A stretch of 24,161 nt of DNA. It comes from a virus. The notes under the pieces were generated by a model that did no database searches, was not told the origin of the DNA, and saw only the letters and a program-made list of their open reading frames with translations. This document shows, one piece after another, positions 5,980 through 18,660 of the stretch (positions within the stretch are counted from its first letter, which is position 1; each line of letters opens with the position of its first letter). Position numbers and translations under genes: made by a program. The DNA is taken from the IMG/VR virus record IMGVR_UViG_3300020595_002074, positions 1 to 24,161 of that record. One strand, given 5' to 3'.

Positions 5980-6585
5980 ATGAACGTAATTAAGAAATTT
6001 AGTCCGCTCTTAAAGGAGCCAAAACTTATCGATGACTTGCCTATTGTTATTAGGGTAAACAAGTTCGACGAAGCATCAGCCAAGACGTTTTCAGTCTTGA
6101 TGCGCAAAGCGCAGAACACGGGCCAGCCCGTTGTTCCAATTATAATTGACAGCTATGGTGGTCAGGTGTACAGTTTGATGTCAATGATTTCAGATGTTCA
6201 ACACTCAAAGATACCGGTGGCGACTATTGTGCAGGGTAAAGCCATGTCTTGTGGTGCTATTTTGTTTAGCTTTGGTGCCCCCGGCAAAAGGTATATGGAT
6301 CAGAACGCGACGGTTATGATTCATGACGTCAGTTCAATGGACCGCGGCAAAGTAGAAGAGATCAAAGCGTCCGCTGAAGAAACTGAGCGACTCAATAAAA
6401 AGATCTATCATATGATGGCAGAGAACTGCGGACAGCACGAAGATTACTTCTTAGAAATTGTTCACGAGAAGGGTCACGCCGATTGGTTTTTGGACGCAAA
6501 AGAGTGCAAGAAGCACAAATTAGCGAATCATTTACGTGTGCCAGACCTTAAAATAGAAGCTACGGTTAAGATCGACTTTAAGTAA
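5980..6585 (+). CDS. ClpP-like serine protease 1
   Basis: This 201-aa protein has the ClpP/crotonase fold pattern. S90 sits in GKAMSCGA, H115 in VMIHDV, and D168 in ADWFLDA, exactly where the ClpP catalytic aspartate falls relative to the FLxA block, so the triad looks complete. The IIIDSYGG segment near residues 54-61 matches the ClpP oxyanion and substrate strand. It starts two bases after the polymerase stop and is probably cotranscribed. In phages such proteins may serve as prohead proteases or replace host ClpP function; the sequence does not tell which. No ClpX or ClpA partner is encoded in the window. Confidence 0.9.
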   Translation: MNVIKKFSPLLKEPKLIDDLPIVIRVNKFDEASAKTFSVLMRKAQNTGQPVVPIIIDSYGGQVYSLMSMISDVQHSKIPVATIVQGKAMSCGAILFSFGAPGKRYMDQNATVMIHDVSSMDRGKVEEIKASAEETERLNKKIYHMMAENCGQHEDYFLEIVHEKGHADWFLDAKECKKHKLANHLRVPDLKIEATVKIDFK

Positions 6586-6600: not shown

Positions 6601-7305
6601 ATGATCAAGACCAAGAAAATCAAATACCGGCGCCTTATGAATGAGTTGGAGTATCTCTATGAAGAGATGGACTTGCTTGACGACATTGTAAAAGGCGCCG
6701 CTGGTGAGTTTGAAGTATACTATCGAGAGTTCTGTGCCAGGAATGAAATAGACATTAACAAACTGAACGAAGACAACAAAGAAAGAATTGCCGGCCTTTA
6801 TGGTGTTGAACCAGAAGAGGTAAAAGAAACCCCAGTCAGCGAATATACTGGTTCGGCAGCAATTGTCAAGGTAGATACTCCGGAAGATGAGCCGCTCTTT
6901 GATGAGACGCAAGAAGAGCTGGGCACGTTCAAGGAGCTTCATGAATATTTCCACAAGATGTTTAAGAAGATAGCTATGCAATTGCACCCAGACAAGATAG
7001 AAAACTTTACTGCTAATGATGAATACAAGAAACAAATGTCTTGGGACTTCTCTAGGGCTAAGAGCGCACTGGACAACAAGAAGTACTTTAAACTAATCCA
7101 AATAGCCAAAAAGCATAATATACATGTCACTGAGCACTTCTCGCTACAAATCAGATGGTTTAAAAAAGAAAGAGATGTTATTCTCGGATCTCTCCAGGAA
7201 GTCAAAACAACGTACAACTATAAGTTCGCCGAGTGTGAAACCGACGAACAAAAGGATGATGTCGTCAGAAAATTTATTTGGCATCTTTTTAGAGTTCAGG
7301 CTTGA
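6601..7305 (+). CDS. J-domain-like protein
   Basis: This 234-aa protein carries the J-domain signature HPD at residues 129-131, within a helix of the form FKKIAMQLHPDK. J proteins stimulate the ATPase of DnaK-type Hsp70 and deliver clients to it. The rest is helical and charged: residues 1-65 look like coiled coil, and the helix after HPD (about 145-170) fits J-domain helix III. The N-terminal extension puts the J domain in the middle, unlike DnaJ. It follows the ClpP-like gene, probably in one transcript, and a hairpin over its ribosome binding site may control it. It could recruit host DnaK for replication or assembly. Confidence 0.8.
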   Translation: MIKTKKIKYRRLMNELEYLYEEMDLLDDIVKGAAGEFEVYYREFCARNEIDINKLNEDNKERIAGLYGVEPEEVKETPVSEYTGSAAIVKVDTPEDEPLFDETQEELGTFKELHEYFHKMFKKIAMQLHPDKIENFTANDEYKKQMSWDFSRAKSALDNKKYFKLIQIAKKHNIHVTEHFSLQIRWFKKERDVILGSLQEVKTTYNYKFAECETDEQKDDVVRKFIWHLFRVQA

Positions 7306-7330
7306 CTCCATAGCCTCACAGTGTTATACT
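7302..7330 (+). promoter_or_regulatory. Sigma70-type promoter for the 7358-13533 gene run
   Basis: TTGACT (7302-7307), a 17-base spacer and TATACT (7325-7330) overlap the stop codon of the J-domain gene. The expected start near 7337 precedes a very strong AAGGAGG ribosome binding site at 7346-7352. It sits in the only gap of more than 50 bases between 1 and 13.5 kb, which supports a real function. Confidence 0.75.
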
Positions 7331-7357
7331 TTATGTATAGTCACCAAGGAGGCAACA

Positions 7358-12946: not shown

Positions 12947-13273
12947 ATGACCGAGGAAAACAATTACGGAAAGAACAACAAGAGAATCATCTTTACCGAT
13001 ACAGACCACCGGCATGCTCAACTGTCGCTCAAATTAAAGAACGATGGTATGACACAAGCTAAATTTTTTCGCTCCATAATTTCTGGATATTTGTCTGATG
13101 ATGAAAGGATTAGAAGTTATGTGGTTGAGAACGGTAGCCTGTCGAAAGAGAAGAAACAAAGAAACACAAAAGCCCGCACCGAAGGTAGAACCTTGGCTCA
13201 TAATTTAGGACTGTCAGAAGATCAAGTAGAAGATATTTTTGATTTGATTTCCGAGGAGCATCCAAATTTATGA
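12947..13273 (+). CDS. Small basic unknown protein, possibly DNA-binding
   Basis: This 108-aa protein starts with a polar tail, then KRIIFTDT as a strand, followed by two predicted helices (AQLSLKLKNDG and QAKFFRSIISGYLSDDE). A strand-helix-helix order is what a ribbon-helix-helix DNA-binding protein would show, but no certain signature is visible. The middle is Lys/Arg rich and the end acidic. It lies four bases after the IMPDH-like gene and overlaps the sigma-like gene by ATGA, so a regulatory role is possible. Confidence 0.8.
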   Translation: MTEENNYGKNNKRIIFTDTDHRHAQLSLKLKNDGMTQAKFFRSIISGYLSDDERIRSYVVENGSLSKEKKQRNTKARTEGRTLAHNLGLSEDQVEDIFDLISEEHPNL

Positions 13274-13533
13274 AAGGCGACGGGTTATTACATTGCAGTC
13301 GAGAGTGCATCAAAAAGGAAAAGAGATGCGTTAAAATAGACTGTAAACACTTTATTGACTACAAAGATGAATATAACTGTAGTCTAATATCAATTAGCAG
13401 AAATGGTCGTATGACCTTAAGAGAAGTAGGCGATAGATTGAAGATTTCATTTGCCCGAGTTAAACAGATAGAGTCCGGTGCACTTAAGAAAATCAAAAAC
13501 TCAGAGCTTTTTTCTTTTAAAGATATGGCCTAA
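13270..13533 (+). CDS. Mini sigma-region-4-like regulator with Cys cluster
   Basis: This 87-aa protein ends in a helix-turn-helix, MTLREVGDRL...RVKQIESGALKKIK (about residues 48-76). It matches the form of sigma70 region 4, the part that reads the -35 element. Five cysteines (C9, C13, C20, C25, C37) precede it and could hold a metal. Regions 1-3 of a sigma factor are absent, so it cannot be a full sigma factor; it may act as a co-activator or sigma appropriation factor. It is the last gene before the motif at 13547 and the acidic protein gene, which suggests a switch to another gene class. Confidence 0.8.
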   Translation: MKGDGLLHCSRECIKKEKRCVKIDCKHFIDYKDEYNCSLISISRNGRMTLREVGDRLKISFARVKQIESGALKKIKNSELFSFKDMA

Positions 13534-13594: not shown

Positions 13595-14263
13595 ATGTCA
13601 CGTAAAACTTTACTTACTGAAGCTGAGGTGCGTCAGTTTCTTAAATTAGCAAACATTGGCCCAGTAGGTGATGCCAAGGTCGTAGAGATGTATCAAGCCC
13701 AGCGCGATGATGAAGAGATGGAAGAGGGCGGTATGCGTCCCGGTATGCGCGATGAGCCACCTGGCATGCGCGACGATGAGGATGAAGATCCTCCCGGAAT
13801 GCGTGATATGCGCGAAGAAGACGATGAGATGGATGCCATGGATATGGGCGATGCAGCCGACGATATGGAAGATGCCGCCGACGATATGGAAGACGACGCT
13901 ATGGATATGGATGCTGCTCCTGCCGCCGGCAAGATGGTCGCAGTTGAGGACTTTATGGGCGCCCTTGAGCGTGCACTTGAAGATGTTCTTGGTGACGAAG
14001 TAGACGTCGATATGGACGACGAAGAGGCCGGTGACGATATGGCTGACGACGCTATGGATATGGCCGATGACGCTATGGATATGGGCGGCGACGATGAAGA
14101 GCCTATGATGGAAGCTGACGACGAAGACGAGTCTTTGGATGAAGAGGCGATTGTCAACGAAGTTGCTCGACGCGTAGCTGCTCGACTTCAAGAGAAAAAC
14201 CAAAAAGAAAATATGGTTGAAGAGCTTGCACAAAAGATTTTAAACAAAATTACTTCTAAGTAA
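13595..14263 (+). CDS. Extremely acidic Asp/Met-rich repeat protein, possible internal head or scaffold protein
   Basis: This 222-aa protein has three parts. Residues 1-32 form a helix starting SRKTLLTEAEVRQF. Residues 38-185 are dominated by Asp, Glu, Met and Ala, with repeats such as PGMRD (four near-copies) and ADDMED or DDAMDM units. The last 40 residues form an amphipathic helix. LTE followed by Ala near residue 9 looks like the T4 gp21 prohead cleavage pattern (Leu/Ile-x-Glu). A very acidic, helix-capped protein would suit a scaffold or packaged internal protein, but this is inference. An AAGGAGAG ribosome binding site precedes it, and a terminator follows. Confidence 0.88.
   Translation: MSRKTLLTEAEVRQFLKLANIGPVGDAKVVEMYQAQRDDEEMEEGGMRPGMRDEPPGMRDDEDEDPPGMRDMREEDDEMDAMDMGDAADDMEDAADDMEDDAMDMDAAPAAGKMVAVEDFMGALERALEDVLGDEVDVDMDDEEAGDDMADDAMDMADDAMDMGGDDEEPMMEADDEDESLDEEAIVNEVARRVAARLQEKNQKENMVEELAQKILNKITSK
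13853..13894 (+). repeat. Two 21-base direct repeats inside the acidic protein gene
   Basis: Two adjacent 21-base units (13853-13873 and 13874-13894) differ at two positions and encode AADDMED twice. They keep the reading frame. Confidence 0.85.
14042..14083 (+). repeat. Second pair of 21-base direct repeats in the acidic protein gene
   Basis: Two adjacent 21-base units (14042-14062 and 14063-14083) encode ADDAMDM twice. The unit length matches the pair at 13853, pointing to growth by in-frame duplication. Confidence 0.85.
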
Positions 14264-14292
14264 TTGACAAATCATAGATCTTACATTATAAT
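14264..14292 (+). promoter_or_regulatory. Perfect-consensus sigma70 promoter
   Basis: TTGACA (14264-14269), 17 bases, TATAAT (14287-14292): all 12 consensus bases with ideal spacing, beginning directly after the upstream stop codon. The expected start near 14299 falls inside the left arm of the terminator hairpin at 14295. Confidence 0.88.
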
Positions 14293-14294
14293 TA

Positions 14295-14323
14295 AATAAC
14301 CACTATCAGTGGTTATTTTTTTT
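14295..14323 (+). terminator. Intrinsic terminator after the acidic protein gene
   Basis: A perfect 10-pair stem (14295-14304 with 14308-14317) and a 3-base loop run into eight T residues (14316-14323). It would stop transcripts arriving from the acidic protein gene. Transcripts started by the promoter at 14264 would lack part of the left arm and so should pass. Confidence 0.88.
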
Positions 14324-14332
14324 GGAGAACCC

Positions 14333-14722
14333 ATGGGGCCTTGGTGGCTTTACTTACTTGTGTTCATATTCGGACACTTCACTTGCAGAACATTTTATTT
14401 CTTTAGATCATCGAGAATTAGTTTGTCGCTGATCACGTACTCGCAGATAATTTATTTATCCTGTATGCGCAGGGCTGTCGAGCATTTAAATGCAATTAAG
14501 GCGAACATAGCCGATGACGACAGTGGCACTCACGATGAATTGCAACAAAAGATTGATGAACAGATAGCTATTTTAAAGAATAATTCAATAAATTATCTAA
14601 TTAATATGCACCCTAAATTTTACAGAGAGAGTCTGGTGTTTGATGACTGGGATTCATCAGCTAACTTTCTCGATGAAAAAAAGGAAGAAGCATTTAACTT
14701 TTGGAAACACAACCATGATTGA
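14333..14722 (+). CDS. Membrane-anchored unknown protein
   Basis: This 129-aa protein starts at the ATG preceded by GGAG at 14324-14327. A longer GTG-started reading would begin within the terminator hairpin and is rejected. Residues 3-22 form one hydrophobic aromatic segment, then a basic stretch (RSSR), so the rest is probably cytoplasmic. The remainder is helical and charged. The end overlaps the ClpP-like gene by 8 bases. It is the first gene after the strong promoter, suggesting early, high expression. Function unknown. Confidence 0.82.
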   Translation: MGPWWLYLLVFIFGHFTCRTFYFFRSSRISLSLITYSQIIYLSCMRRAVEHLNAIKANIADDDSGTHDELQQKIDEQIAILKNNSINYLINMHPKFYRESLVFDDWDSSANFLDEKKEEAFNFWKHNHD

Positions 14723-15371
14723 TAAAATAAAAAAGCTGGTCGATTCTTTAGCTAAGGATCAGGACAAGCAGGAAGTCCCCATCACCCTTTCACTGGAAGA
14801 GCAGGAAGAATTAGTAAACCAAATACTTGGTGGACAAAGTAAGGAGCCAGACCTCAGACTTATGGGCCTCTTCAGCGATGTGACTGACGAGAAGGTGGCG
14901 GAATTAGTACACGCCCTGTTATACCTTGATGAGCTTAACAGAGTTAGAAAAGAAGACAAGGCAGTTGAGTTTTACATCTGCACCTATGGTGGATCCGCGG
15001 ATGATATGTTCGCGCTCTACGATGTTATGCGCCAAGTCAGAGAGAACACTGAGGTACATACCGTAGGTATGGGCAAAGTAATGTCGGCTGGTGTGTTATT
15101 GCTGGCTGCTGGCACGAAAGGTAAGCGCAAAATTGGAAAGTATTGTCGAGTGATGATTCATTCCGTTATCGGAGGCAGCCATGGCTCTTTACCGAACCTC
15201 GCCAATGAGATGGAAGCAATGCAGCAGATACAGAAAGACTATATAAACGCATTGTGTGATGAGACTAACATGAGCAAAAAAGACCTGAAGAAACTTCTTG
15301 AGCGTAAGGTTAACGTATACCTGTCGGCAGAAGAAGCGGTCGAGCTAGGAATTGCAGACATAATTATTTAA
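14715..15371 (+). CDS. ClpP-like serine protease 2 with altered triad
   Basis: This 218-aa second ClpP-like protein has S124 in KVMSAGV, H149 in RVMIHSV and the YGGSADD substrate strand near residue 91. Aligning the YLSAEEA block to E. coli ClpP puts N200 where the catalytic aspartate (D171) normally is. Asn may still orient the histidine weakly, or the protein may be a regulatory subunit like ClpR, or a different acidic residue may serve. The start at 14715 is chosen over a longer reading because the extra residues only shadow the previous gene. It sits directly before the 545-aa candidate virion gene, where a prohead protease might be expected. Confidence 0.88.
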   Translation: MIDKIKKLVDSLAKDQDKQEVPITLSLEEQEELVNQILGGQSKEPDLRLMGLFSDVTDEKVAELVHALLYLDELNRVRKEDKAVEFYICTYGGSADDMFALYDVMRQVRENTEVHTVGMGKVMSAGVLLLAAGTKGKRKIGKYCRVMIHSVIGGSHGSLPNLANEMEAMQQIQKDYINALCDETNMSKKDLKKLLERKVNVYLSAEEAVELGIADIII

Positions 15372-15382
15372 GGAGTATACAG

Positions 15383-17020
15383 GTGTCAGATTATATTAAA
15401 GATATGTTTATTGAAGTGAGGGAGAAAGACGAAACGATCTCGCCGCTCACGGAACTAGAACAAATGATAGAGGAAGTCAGTAAGGTGCTCCACGGAGTTA
15501 CAATGCTTAACGAGGATGAAACACTTGAAGAGGGCGAGAGATTCAGTATGTCGATCCCTATCCCCAAACTCAACCCTAACGAGGCGTGGGGGAATCCCGA
15601 CAGCCAATCAAGAAAAGATATCGACAGAATCTTCGCGTCTATTACCAGACAAGGTGGGATCAAAGAAAGAATCCAGCACGTTAACAGTTTTGTTGATCCG
15701 AAGACAGCACAGAGAAAAGGCAAAGGCAAGAGATTTAACGCCATCCTTAATATGATGATGATTATCGAAGCGCTTCAAGCCTGTTTAAACGATTATAGTG
15801 AGTCTTCTGCTGGGTTCGTATTCGAAGGATTCATGGCAGCACTTACTGGAGGCTCCCAACAGGCTGATCGCGTAGGTGGCACGCTACCCATTGAAGACTT
15901 TGTTACAGGGGACAATGAAAATGTGAGCCTCAAACTTTTGAGCCCCAATACTGGTATTCACGGAAGTTTTACTAACCTTGTTGACTATTTGTTTTTACGA
16001 GGTGGTTCCGGCGAGCCTGACATCAAATACTTAATCGGACGCAAAAATTCAGAGGGTGATGACGTATCGCAATTAGCTATCTTTGATTTCGTGATTAGTC
16101 GAGAGAACTTTATGACTATTATGGAATCATCTAAGAAGAACAGATCACTGCTCGGAGATGAAGAAACTAAAAATCGCCTAAAGTTACAAATTCAAAATTT
16201 TAGCGATTCGTCAAAATGGAAAGTAGGAATGCAAGAAATCCTAGAAAATGTTCCCGGATATACCCGCGGTATGTTCAGCAAAAATGTCGATCCCGCGGGC
16301 CAGTTTGAACCAGATGAAGAAAGCGATCTTGCCGATAAGAAAAGAACACAATACTCCAAAGTAAAGGTAAAGGCGTACAAAATGGACGCCGAAAACTCGG
16401 CAGAACAAGCGGCCAAAGCAGGTCAACAACCAAATTTTGAGAAATGGGCTAAAACACATGATTTAAAAGATCTTATGCCGCCTATCCTAGATCCAGAGGA
16501 TCAGGCAGAAGTCGCTAAAGCACAAAAAATACAACAAAGAAACTTTGCTAATTTACAAAAATACTATAACGCAGCTTATACCGCTGCTGCTGAGGAAGCT
16601 CGACAGGTAGCCGAATCACACTTCGGGGCTTTCCATGTAAGAGAGAAGCGTATGATGCAAGAAGAAAGAGCGTTGATGGAGGGCGGCGGTAGAGATGGTG
16701 GTAGTCAGTGGGAGATCACCCAAACACTAATGGACAAACTTAGAAAAGTGGCGAAGTCACAATACTATGGTGAGCTAGATATGTCCGATGAGAATATCAA
16801 AGCATGCGCCGCAATCTATATTGAGAAATTGAAAGACGATATGATGGCTCTTTTGGAGACAACCAAGAGTTTTACTGAGAATGTAGGAAAGTACTTTAGT
16901 GCCGATAGGCGCTCGACGGCGATGAACGCGAATGAAAAAGCGCAAGAGGAAGGAAAGACTGTGGTCAACTTGTTGCAGCAATCAAAAACAAAAGGCGAAG
17001 AAGATTCCGATCTTGAATAA
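15383..17020 (+). CDS. Large unknown protein, possible virion protein or nuclease-fold protein
   Basis: This 545-aa protein starts at a GTG preceded by AAGGAG with ideal spacing. Residues 138-200 hold its most striking segment: GFVFEGF with E148, a GG turn, PIEDF with D162, and SLK ending at K174. The E...D...xK order resembles PD-(D/E)XK nuclease folds, with Ser replacing the second acidic residue. The C-terminal half is Ala/Gln/Lys-rich helix that looks like coiled coil. It follows ClpP-like protease 2 by 11 bases and ends before the GroEL promoter. I do not recognise a named family. A head-associated protein is one possibility. Confidence 0.8.
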   Translation: MSDYIKDMFIEVREKDETISPLTELEQMIEEVSKVLHGVTMLNEDETLEEGERFSMSIPIPKLNPNEAWGNPDSQSRKDIDRIFASITRQGGIKERIQHVNSFVDPKTAQRKGKGKRFNAILNMMMIIEALQACLNDYSESSAGFVFEGFMAALTGGSQQADRVGGTLPIEDFVTGDNENVSLKLLSPNTGIHGSFTNLVDYLFLRGGSGEPDIKYLIGRKNSEGDDVSQLAIFDFVISRENFMTIMESSKKNRSLLGDEETKNRLKLQIQNFSDSSKWKVGMQEILENVPGYTRGMFSKNVDPAGQFEPDEESDLADKKRTQYSKVKVKAYKMDAENSAEQAAKAGQQPNFEKWAKTHDLKDLMPPILDPEDQAEVAKAQKIQQRNFANLQKYYNAAYTAAAEEARQVAESHFGAFHVREKRMMQEERALMEGGGRDGGSQWEITQTLMDKLRKVAKSQYYGELDMSDENIKACAAIYIEKLKDDMMALLETTKSFTENVGKYFSADRRSTAMNANEKAQEEGKTVVNLLQQSKTKGEEDSDLE

Positions 17021-17026
17021 AAACAT

Positions 17027-17055
17027 TTGACATTTCATACAAAATTGATTATAAT
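17027..17055 (+). promoter_or_regulatory. Perfect-consensus sigma70 promoter for the GroEL gene
   Basis: TTGACA (17027-17032), a 17-base spacer and TATAAT (17050-17055) match all 12 consensus bases. Transcription would start near 17062, giving a 15-base leader that contains the GAGG site before the ATG at 17077. Confidence 0.9.
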
Positions 17056-17076: not shown

Positions 17077-18660
17077 ATGAGTCGCGAATACGACAACAAT
17101 CAATCGCTACAACAAAAGATAATGAACGGTGTGAATGTCCTTGCTGACAATGTGGCATCCACACTTGGACCCCGCGGCAGAAATGTTCTGTTGCAAGAGA
17201 AAGGAAAGGCGCCTTTCGTAACGAAAGACGGAGTGACCGTAGCACACTTCGTAGCCTTGGAAGATCCAATCGAGAACGCTGCTGTACAAGTAGCTAGGCA
17301 AGCTGCCATTGAAACCAATGAGATTGCCGGCGATGGTACGACCACGTCAACTATTCTTGCGAGAGCAATCCTGCAAGAATCACAAAAGCATATTGCTGCG
17401 GGTGCCGCACCTGTGGAACTACAACGTGGTATCACGAATACAGTTAAAGAGATCTGCACCAAGTTGTCAGCACAATCAACGCCTGTCACTAGCATTGAAG
17501 ATATCAAACACATTGCCACCATCTCAGCCAACAACGATTCGACCATTGGTGATCTAGTAGCTATGGCTATAGACAAGGTTGGCCAAGACGGCTCAATCAC
17601 TATCGAAGAATCTCGTTCGTTGGACACGTCCATTGATATTGAGGAAGGGTTTAAGGTACCGTCTGGTGTCGCTGCCTCCGCCTTTATCACTGATGAAAGA
17701 CGTTCGGTAATGTCTTATGATGAGCCGCTTGTTCTTGTCACCGATCACAAGATTGATGCTGTTGAGCCTGTGCTTCCCATCCTTGAGATGATAGCGAGAG
17801 AAGGCCGACCACTAATTATTGTTGCTGAAGAGGTTGAAGGCCAAGCACTGGCTGCTCTTATCATGAATGCTATGAGGGGTACGCTGAAGGTGGCTGCTAT
17901 TAAGGCTCCTTTCTATGGCAATGAACGCAGAGATACCCTGAGTGATCTTGCAGCTTCGATTGGTGCTACCTTTGTAACAAGAGAATCTGGCATTAAACTA
18001 AACGATGTGCAACTCAAACACTTGGGCTCGGCTAAGAGTGTGGAAGGGAATAAATACACCACAACCTTCGTTGGCGGCAATGCAGACTTTGAAGAGATTG
18101 AAAAAAGAATTGAGTCTCTTAAGAGCGACATCAAAAGCTGCGATGACATGCAAGCGGCAGAGCTTATGCAAGGTAGAATCGTTAGGCTTGTTTCTGGTGT
18201 CGCAGTTATCAAAGTAGGCGGAGCGACACAAGTTGAAATGATTGAGAAAAAGCACAGAGTAGAAGATGCCCTTGAGGCAGTGCGCTCTGCGCAAGATGAG
18301 GGCATTGTTGGGGGAGGTGGAACAGCGCTTCTTAGGGCTTCGCAAGACCTTATCGTCTCGACCACTGATTCACATTCCGATCAAGCCTACGGTGTGTCAA
18401 TTGTTGTGAACGCTTGTAGGGCCCCGATTACTCAGATGGCTTTAAACGCTGGTCTTTCCCCTGATATCATTGTTGATAGAGTGCTGAACTCTGACAGTGG
18501 TAATGGCTGGGATTTTAGAAACGACCGCTTGACAAATATGATGAAGAGTGGTATTATTGATCCTGTGAAGGTAACTAAGACAGCTTTGCAGAACGCTTCC
18601 AGTTGTGCCGGCACTTTGATCACCACCAATTACGGTATTATACAAACGGAGTCAGAATGA
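17077..18660 (+). CDS. groEL: Phage-encoded GroEL-like chaperonin
   Basis: This 527-aa group I chaperonin uses ATP to fold proteins in a ring cavity. The nucleotide site is intact: GPRGRN (31-36), KDGVTVA with D51, GDGTTT at 85-90 with D86, and VEDAL plus the GGGGTAL block near residue 410. Compared with E. coli GroEL (548 aa) it lacks the Gly-Gly-Met tail and ends in ESE. The apical domain is complete in length. No GroES gene is in the window, so it may use the host GroES, another phage cochaperonin or none. It has its own strong promoter and overlaps the next gene by ATGA. Confidence 0.96.
   Translation: MSREYDNNQSLQQKIMNGVNVLADNVASTLGPRGRNVLLQEKGKAPFVTKDGVTVAHFVALEDPIENAAVQVARQAAIETNEIAGDGTTTSTILARAILQESQKHIAAGAAPVELQRGITNTVKEICTKLSAQSTPVTSIEDIKHIATISANNDSTIGDLVAMAIDKVGQDGSITIEESRSLDTSIDIEEGFKVPSGVAASAFITDERRSVMSYDEPLVLVTDHKIDAVEPVLPILEMIAREGRPLIIVAEEVEGQALAALIMNAMRGTLKVAAIKAPFYGNERRDTLSDLAASIGATFVTRESGIKLNDVQLKHLGSAKSVEGNKYTTTFVGGNADFEEIEKRIESLKSDIKSCDDMQAAELMQGRIVRLVSGVAVIKVGGATQVEMIEKKHRVEDALEAVRSAQDEGIVGGGGTALLRASQDLIVSTTDSHSDQAYGVSIVVNACRAPITQMALNAGLSPDIIVDRVLNSDSGNGWDFRNDRLTNMMKSGIIDPVKVTKTALQNASSCAGTLITTNYGIIQTESE
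18529..18557 (+). promoter_or_regulatory. Possible internal promoter in the end of the GroEL gene
   Basis: TTGACA (18529-18534), 17 bases, TATTAT (18552-18557) lie about 100 bases before the small genes from 18657. The sequence also encodes conserved GroEL residues, so chance is a serious alternative. Confidence 0.35.

Follow-up and report, generated by a model that had tools for sequence, protein, structure and literature searches.

A conserved sigma70-type promoter overlapping an intrinsic terminator in uncultured phages, a likely filter for the origin of transcripts

How can a phage gene be transcribed from a promoter of its own and at the same time be closed to transcripts that arrive from the gene in front of it? 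The question is raised by a short element in a viral contig of 24,161 nucleotides (IMG/VR record IMGVR_UViG_3300020595_002074, positions 1 to 24,161, hereafter the window), which has a promoter interlocked with a terminator between the genes for an acidic 222-amino-acid protein and a 129-amino-acid protein. We consider it likely that a host-type sigma70 promoter and an intrinsic terminator are fused in this element and that together they act as an origin filter. Polymerase that enters from the gene in front would transcribe both hairpin arms and stop at the T run. Polymerase starting locally would produce an RNA that lacks the left arm wholly or in part. In this RNA the hairpin would be lacking or weak, and transcription would run on into the 129-amino-acid gene and the genes behind it.

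All features of the element lie on the plus strand. The upstream gene (13595-14263) ends with a TAA stop codon at 14261-14263 that abuts the -35 box TTGACA (14264-14269), which is followed by a 17-bp spacer (14270-14286) and the -10 box TATAAT (14287-14292). Both hexamers match the consensus (12/12 positions), exactly as stated in the original prediction of a perfect TTGACA-17-TATAAT promoter ending at 14292. Standard sigma70 spacing places the predicted transcription start (+1) at 14299, 7 nucleotides past the -10 box and within the left (5') arm of the hairpin AAATAACCACT-ATC-AGTGGTTATTT. Its arms, at 14294-14304 and 14308-14318, form 11 pairs around the 3-base loop at 14305-14307, and the right (3') arm is expected in both kinds of RNA. 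The T run at 14316-14323 is the predicted 3' end of RNA from the upstream gene. A perfect 10-pair terminator at 14295-14323 had been proposed; the terminator and the T run to 14323 stand, and the pair count is corrected to 11 pairs beginning at 14294. The sequence continues with a Shine-Dalgarno-like GGAGA (14324-14328) and the ATG at 14333 of the downstream gene (14333-14722), whose product has a hydrophobic N-terminus, and the whole unit takes up about 70 bp. Within the window the hairpin at 14294-14318 is the sole match of the terminator scan to combine 11 pairs with a complete T run, a stricter scan returned 14264-14323 as the only promoter/terminator overlap, and no Rfam family reached its gathering score.

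To what extent the arrangement is kept in relatives was examined in several collections. The first consisted of 44 viral loci found with the downstream 129-amino-acid protein as query (34-100% identity), and therefore the hairpin was without influence on the choice of loci. TTGACA-17-TAnnnT followed by a hairpin with T run was present in 44/44 of them. A second set, sharing some contigs with the first, was obtained with the 545-amino-acid protein encoded at 15383-17020. Among its loci that include the downstream gene, 38/45 have the exact element and four more a close form, namely L047 with TTTACA as -35 box and L010, L017 and L018 with a perfect promoter and the hairpin past the start point. 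Finally, the string TATAATAACC-N(4-20)-GGTTATTTTT by itself was sought in IMG/VR. Perfect TTGACA accompanied 65 of the 97 newly fetched viral matches, in 64 cases at exactly 17 bp, and none of the 117 matches listed (of at least 117) when bacterial and archaeal genomes were scanned for this string.

Pooling yielded 94 distinct copies, all of which have TTGAC(A/T) since the search demanded it. The spacer is 17 bp long in 89/94 copies, its length being kept and its sequence drifting. Hexamers of the TTGACA/TATAAT kind that lie 16-18 bp apart and are conserved despite drift of the spacer between them mark a promoter of the sigma70 type, and the element has them. In the commonest form (66/94 copies) the left arm runs from 3 bases inside the -10 box to about +1; the last three bases of the -10 box thus double as outer hairpin pairs in most relatives. 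The downstream open reading frame is a homologue of the window's 129-amino-acid gene in 93/93 readable copies. Some relatives carry an unrelated palindrome in place of this one, with the layout unchanged.

The pairing of the arms is itself maintained. When 35 distinct copies were aligned over a 12-pair helix, 95.4% of positions were paired compared with 88.8% for shuffled and 27-60% for slid partners, and changes on both sides occurred in 31 cells vs 11.8. The 94 copies had been picked for paired arms and the aligned ones had passed the element finder too; these percentages therefore lean towards structure, and the loci chosen by homology are the unbiased part of the evidence. In overlapping copies a pair covarying from A-U to U-A sits at position 5 of the -10 box, so that bases of the -10 box are also RNA pairing partners. 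Inner and outer pairs both covary, and the loop ranges from 3 to 12 bases among relatives. The core AACCA/TGGTT (alignment A1, columns 12-16 and 36-40) is nearly invariant, with a few relatives having replaced it entirely. A G+C-bearing hairpin with a U run directly after it and with pairing kept by covariation is what characterizes an intrinsic terminator, and these features are present in the element.

Chance was assessed by scanning the window and 12 relative contigs (0.75 Mb) for a hairpin with T run straddling the start predicted for a promoter-like site. For 447 promoter-like sites this gave 13 matches, two of them falling on one place, compared with 0.2 for 199 sites in order-1 Markov shuffles. 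A like scan of 0.88 Mb of bacterial loci gave 3/355, one being the very match by which its locus was selected. A looser RNAfold scan that accepted promoters with 9/12 matches returned 41 matches against 34 in shuffles; it was without specificity and was left unused. Judged from sequence, the layout is not a product of chance, and its conservation in about 100 relatives is far stronger evidence of this than the count from the overlap scan. Nor do promoters of these phages generally come with a hairpin, because two further promoters of the window are without a conserved one. At the second perfect promoter (17027-17055, before groEL) a hairpin is absent. The promoter TTGACT-17-TATACT at 7302-7330, before an 84-amino-acid gene, has a GCCTC in its spacer that can pair with the Shine-Dalgarno sequence GGAGGC (-16.7 kcal/mol, 7302-7357); it was considered as a third conserved filter and rejected, as about 55 distinct relatives keep the promoter and not the hairpin.

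What would the overlap do to RNA that starts locally? For an energy comparison of the full hairpin with the local RNA, +1 was set 7 nucleotides after the -10 box. Over the 94 copies the median predicted hairpin energy changes from -14.5 kcal/mol for the full structure to -1.9 kcal/mol for the local RNA, in which the stem is weaker than -5 kcal/mol in 79/94 copies. Where the left arm starts 3 bases into the -10 box, as in the commonest form, the local RNA therefore loses most of the hairpin energy.

A second overlap, outside the window, reaches the same outcome by another route. In the 92.5-kb relative G001 (L166 / G001:C1:47231-47283), TTGACTTTGACCCTCCGGTTGGTTATAATACAATCAATCGGAGGGTTTTTTTATG precedes a 5'-3' exonuclease gene (PHROG 107). 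Here the left arm lies wholly within the spacer between the -35 and -10 boxes, the -10 box falls inside the loop or close to it, and the right arm is past +1 and also carries the ribosome-binding site, as it does in some relatives. About 15 relatives keep this layout with differing stems (CCCTCCG/CGGAGGG, CCTCCGA/TCGGAGG, CCCTGATC/GATCAGGG), and the element is absent in the remaining relatives of the exonuclease gene. The predicted energy of -16 to -26 kcal/mol shrinks to about 0 to -3 kcal/mol for the local RNA, the arm being lost from it because of the geometry. That a different geometry leads to the same result favours selection on the filter itself.

The original prediction that read-through from upstream is stopped and local RNA escapes is thus supported in part, by the conserved overlap, by the covarying pairs in the -10 box and by the left arm lying upstream of +1 at the exonuclease gene. 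Several observations weigh against it. In the window copy the predicted energy falls only from -10.8 to -5.6 kcal/mol, and RNA from 14299 would retain a 6-pair stem. The smaller drop arises because the hairpin lies a few bases further downstream in the clade of the window, and since the 6-pair stem can still form, escape there would be partial or helped by proximity; in this clade escape by truncation alone is probably incomplete and aided by closeness to the promoter. A stem of -9 kcal/mol or stronger is kept by 3/94 copies (L026, L097 and L105, the last retaining -9.5 of -14.0 kcal/mol in its local RNA). A strong hairpin follows +1 in L010, L017, L018 (outside the 94-copy set), L026 and L036/L097, and altogether 6 to 9 relatives retain the hairpin on the downstream side of +1. 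In L031-L033, which belong to the more distant loci of the second set, a hairpin is present but a good promoter is not. Moreover, the invariance of AACCA/TGGTT exceeds what pairing or termination needs, and therefore an added sequence-specific role is possible.

These observations have to be set against other explanations of the same layout. A real promoter and a real terminator might overlap purely to save DNA, with the loss of the arm a side effect and closeness alone giving escape. The compactness of the unit, with a stop codon abutting the -35 box and only about 70 bp in all, agrees with this, as do the -10 bases AAT, which can also pair with the U run, and the report that a whole terminator 24 bp from a promoter was still escaped (PMC6045580). 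We nevertheless regard mere economy as rather unlikely, given that the register is kept across very divergent phages, that the exonuclease-gene locus arrives at the same end with the arm in the spacer, and that other promoters in the same phages are without such a hairpin. Alternatively, the hairpin might also halt some of the local RNA near +25 and so provide a tunable or factor-controlled output, for which the ampC attenuator/frd terminator is a precedent (PMC6045580). The window form, with its 6-pair stem and a U run interrupted by an A, and the relatives L017, L018, L026 and L036 with a full hairpin would suit such a role. However, a classical attenuator has its whole hairpin past its own start. 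In the window and all 94 copies the left arm starts upstream of the predicted +1, and a few other relatives have the entire hairpin past it. With the left arm of the commonest form ending at about +1 and the local stem weaker than -5 kcal/mol in most copies, attenuation appears improbable as the general function.

The near invariance of AACCA/TGGTT and the encoding of a sigma70 region-4-like phage protein close by (13270-13533) would be expected if a regulator bound the palindrome as a DNA operator over the start site, with the T run incidental. Yet the variable loop of 3-12 bases shifts the spacing of the half-sites, inner and outer pairs covary, the right arm is followed by a T run, and an unrelated palindrome replaces this one in some relatives with the layout the same, all of which makes an operator very improbable. 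We give hardly any credence to a stabilizing hairpin that shields the 5' end of the local transcript: the local RNA of the window could fold a 5'-terminal stem of 6-7 pairs, but the left arm overlaps the -10 box in most copies and the local RNA therefore cannot form the hairpin.

The proposed origin filter follows a logic met elsewhere. In IS10 the left arm falls outside the native transposase transcript; the ampC hairpin is wholly inside the ampC transcript and attenuates ampC. According to PMC2965389, insertion sequences are known to carry 5' terminators, and protection from outside promoters was described for Tn10/IS10 and IS200 (Davis et al. 1985 and Beuzon et al. 1999, cited therein). The likeness is that a structure in the read-through RNA blocks the gene of the element. 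Hairpins of that kind precede the transposase gene of a mobile element, whereas the phage element lies between core phage genes (ClpP-like, GroEL and DnaE-like) and its terminator overlaps the promoter itself, the left arm including -10 bases or being placed in the spacer. The E. coli ampC attenuator is at the same time the frd terminator (Grundstrom and Jaurin, cited in PMC6045580), and it resembles the phage element in that one hairpin ends an upstream operon just past the promoter of the next gene; in contrast, the local transcript is without the left arm in most phage copies. In reporter tests of the same work a promoter 134 bp from a strong terminator was blocked, whereas one 24 bp from it was not. 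These tests also showed that at Burkholderia nlpD1-penA TERM 264 a promoter beside the terminator passes local RNA while upstream RNA is stopped (PMC6045580). The penA case arose by point mutation with an adjacent -10 box, whereas the phage design is conserved, overlapping and present at two loci. Because its context differs or the left arm is missing from the local transcript, the phage element is not a member of the insertion-sequence, ampC/frd or penA systems. A precedent paper for promoter-terminator overlap in phages was not found in the open-access literature, which is weak evidence of absence. The logic is hence already known, and what is new is its conserved and more tightly overlapped phage form.

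Downstream of the element the gene order is 129-amino-acid protein, ClpP-like protease, 545-amino-acid protein and GroEL. Upstream are the genes for the acidic protein and for sigma70 region-4-like, IMP dehydrogenase-like, dUTPase-like and DnaE-like proteins, the IMP dehydrogenase and dUTPase labels coming from reading of the translations only. The original prediction also had the element insulate two gene classes. This is not established, because in G001 the promoter-terminator site is at 67 kb, a long way from the terminase, portal, major head and tail sheath genes at 6-31 kb, which are the main virion genes of this relative; moreover, neither the acidic 222-amino-acid nor the downstream 129-amino-acid protein matched a Pfam or PHROGs family. 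The 87-amino-acid protein encoded just upstream of the acidic gene (13270-13533) matches sigma70 region 4 in Pfam (E 2e-8), has an N-terminus rich in cysteine and may be a phage transcription factor. The phage has two different ClpP-like proteases (5980-6585 and 14718-15371), the second near the GroEL gene (17077-18660). A bacterial-genome search with the ClpP-like protein gave no relative, and in the annotated phage collection no isolate relatives were found for the 545-amino-acid protein or for a divergent copy of the 129-amino-acid protein. Another hairpin, TGGCAGACCGGT-N-AAGTCTGCC with T run, occurs three times in the relative G011 (G011:C1:31834, 32627 and 32860) and again in G004 and G009.

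If the filter operates as proposed, a part of 60-70 bp would combine promoter and insulator in one with nothing needed in trans, and it would offer a clean test of whether removal of the 5' arm lets promoter-proximal transcripts escape terminators. It would also be a warning that programs for promoter and terminator prediction ought to search compact phage genomes for signals that overlap. The element would mark a regulatory boundary in widespread uncultured phages without a close relative in the annotated phage collection. On balance we favour the view that in a large family of marine phages promoters containing a hairpin arm, over the -10 box at one gene and in the spacer at another, serve as a standard one-way filter, through which a gene would owe its expression to locally started RNA alone and never to read-through from its neighbours.
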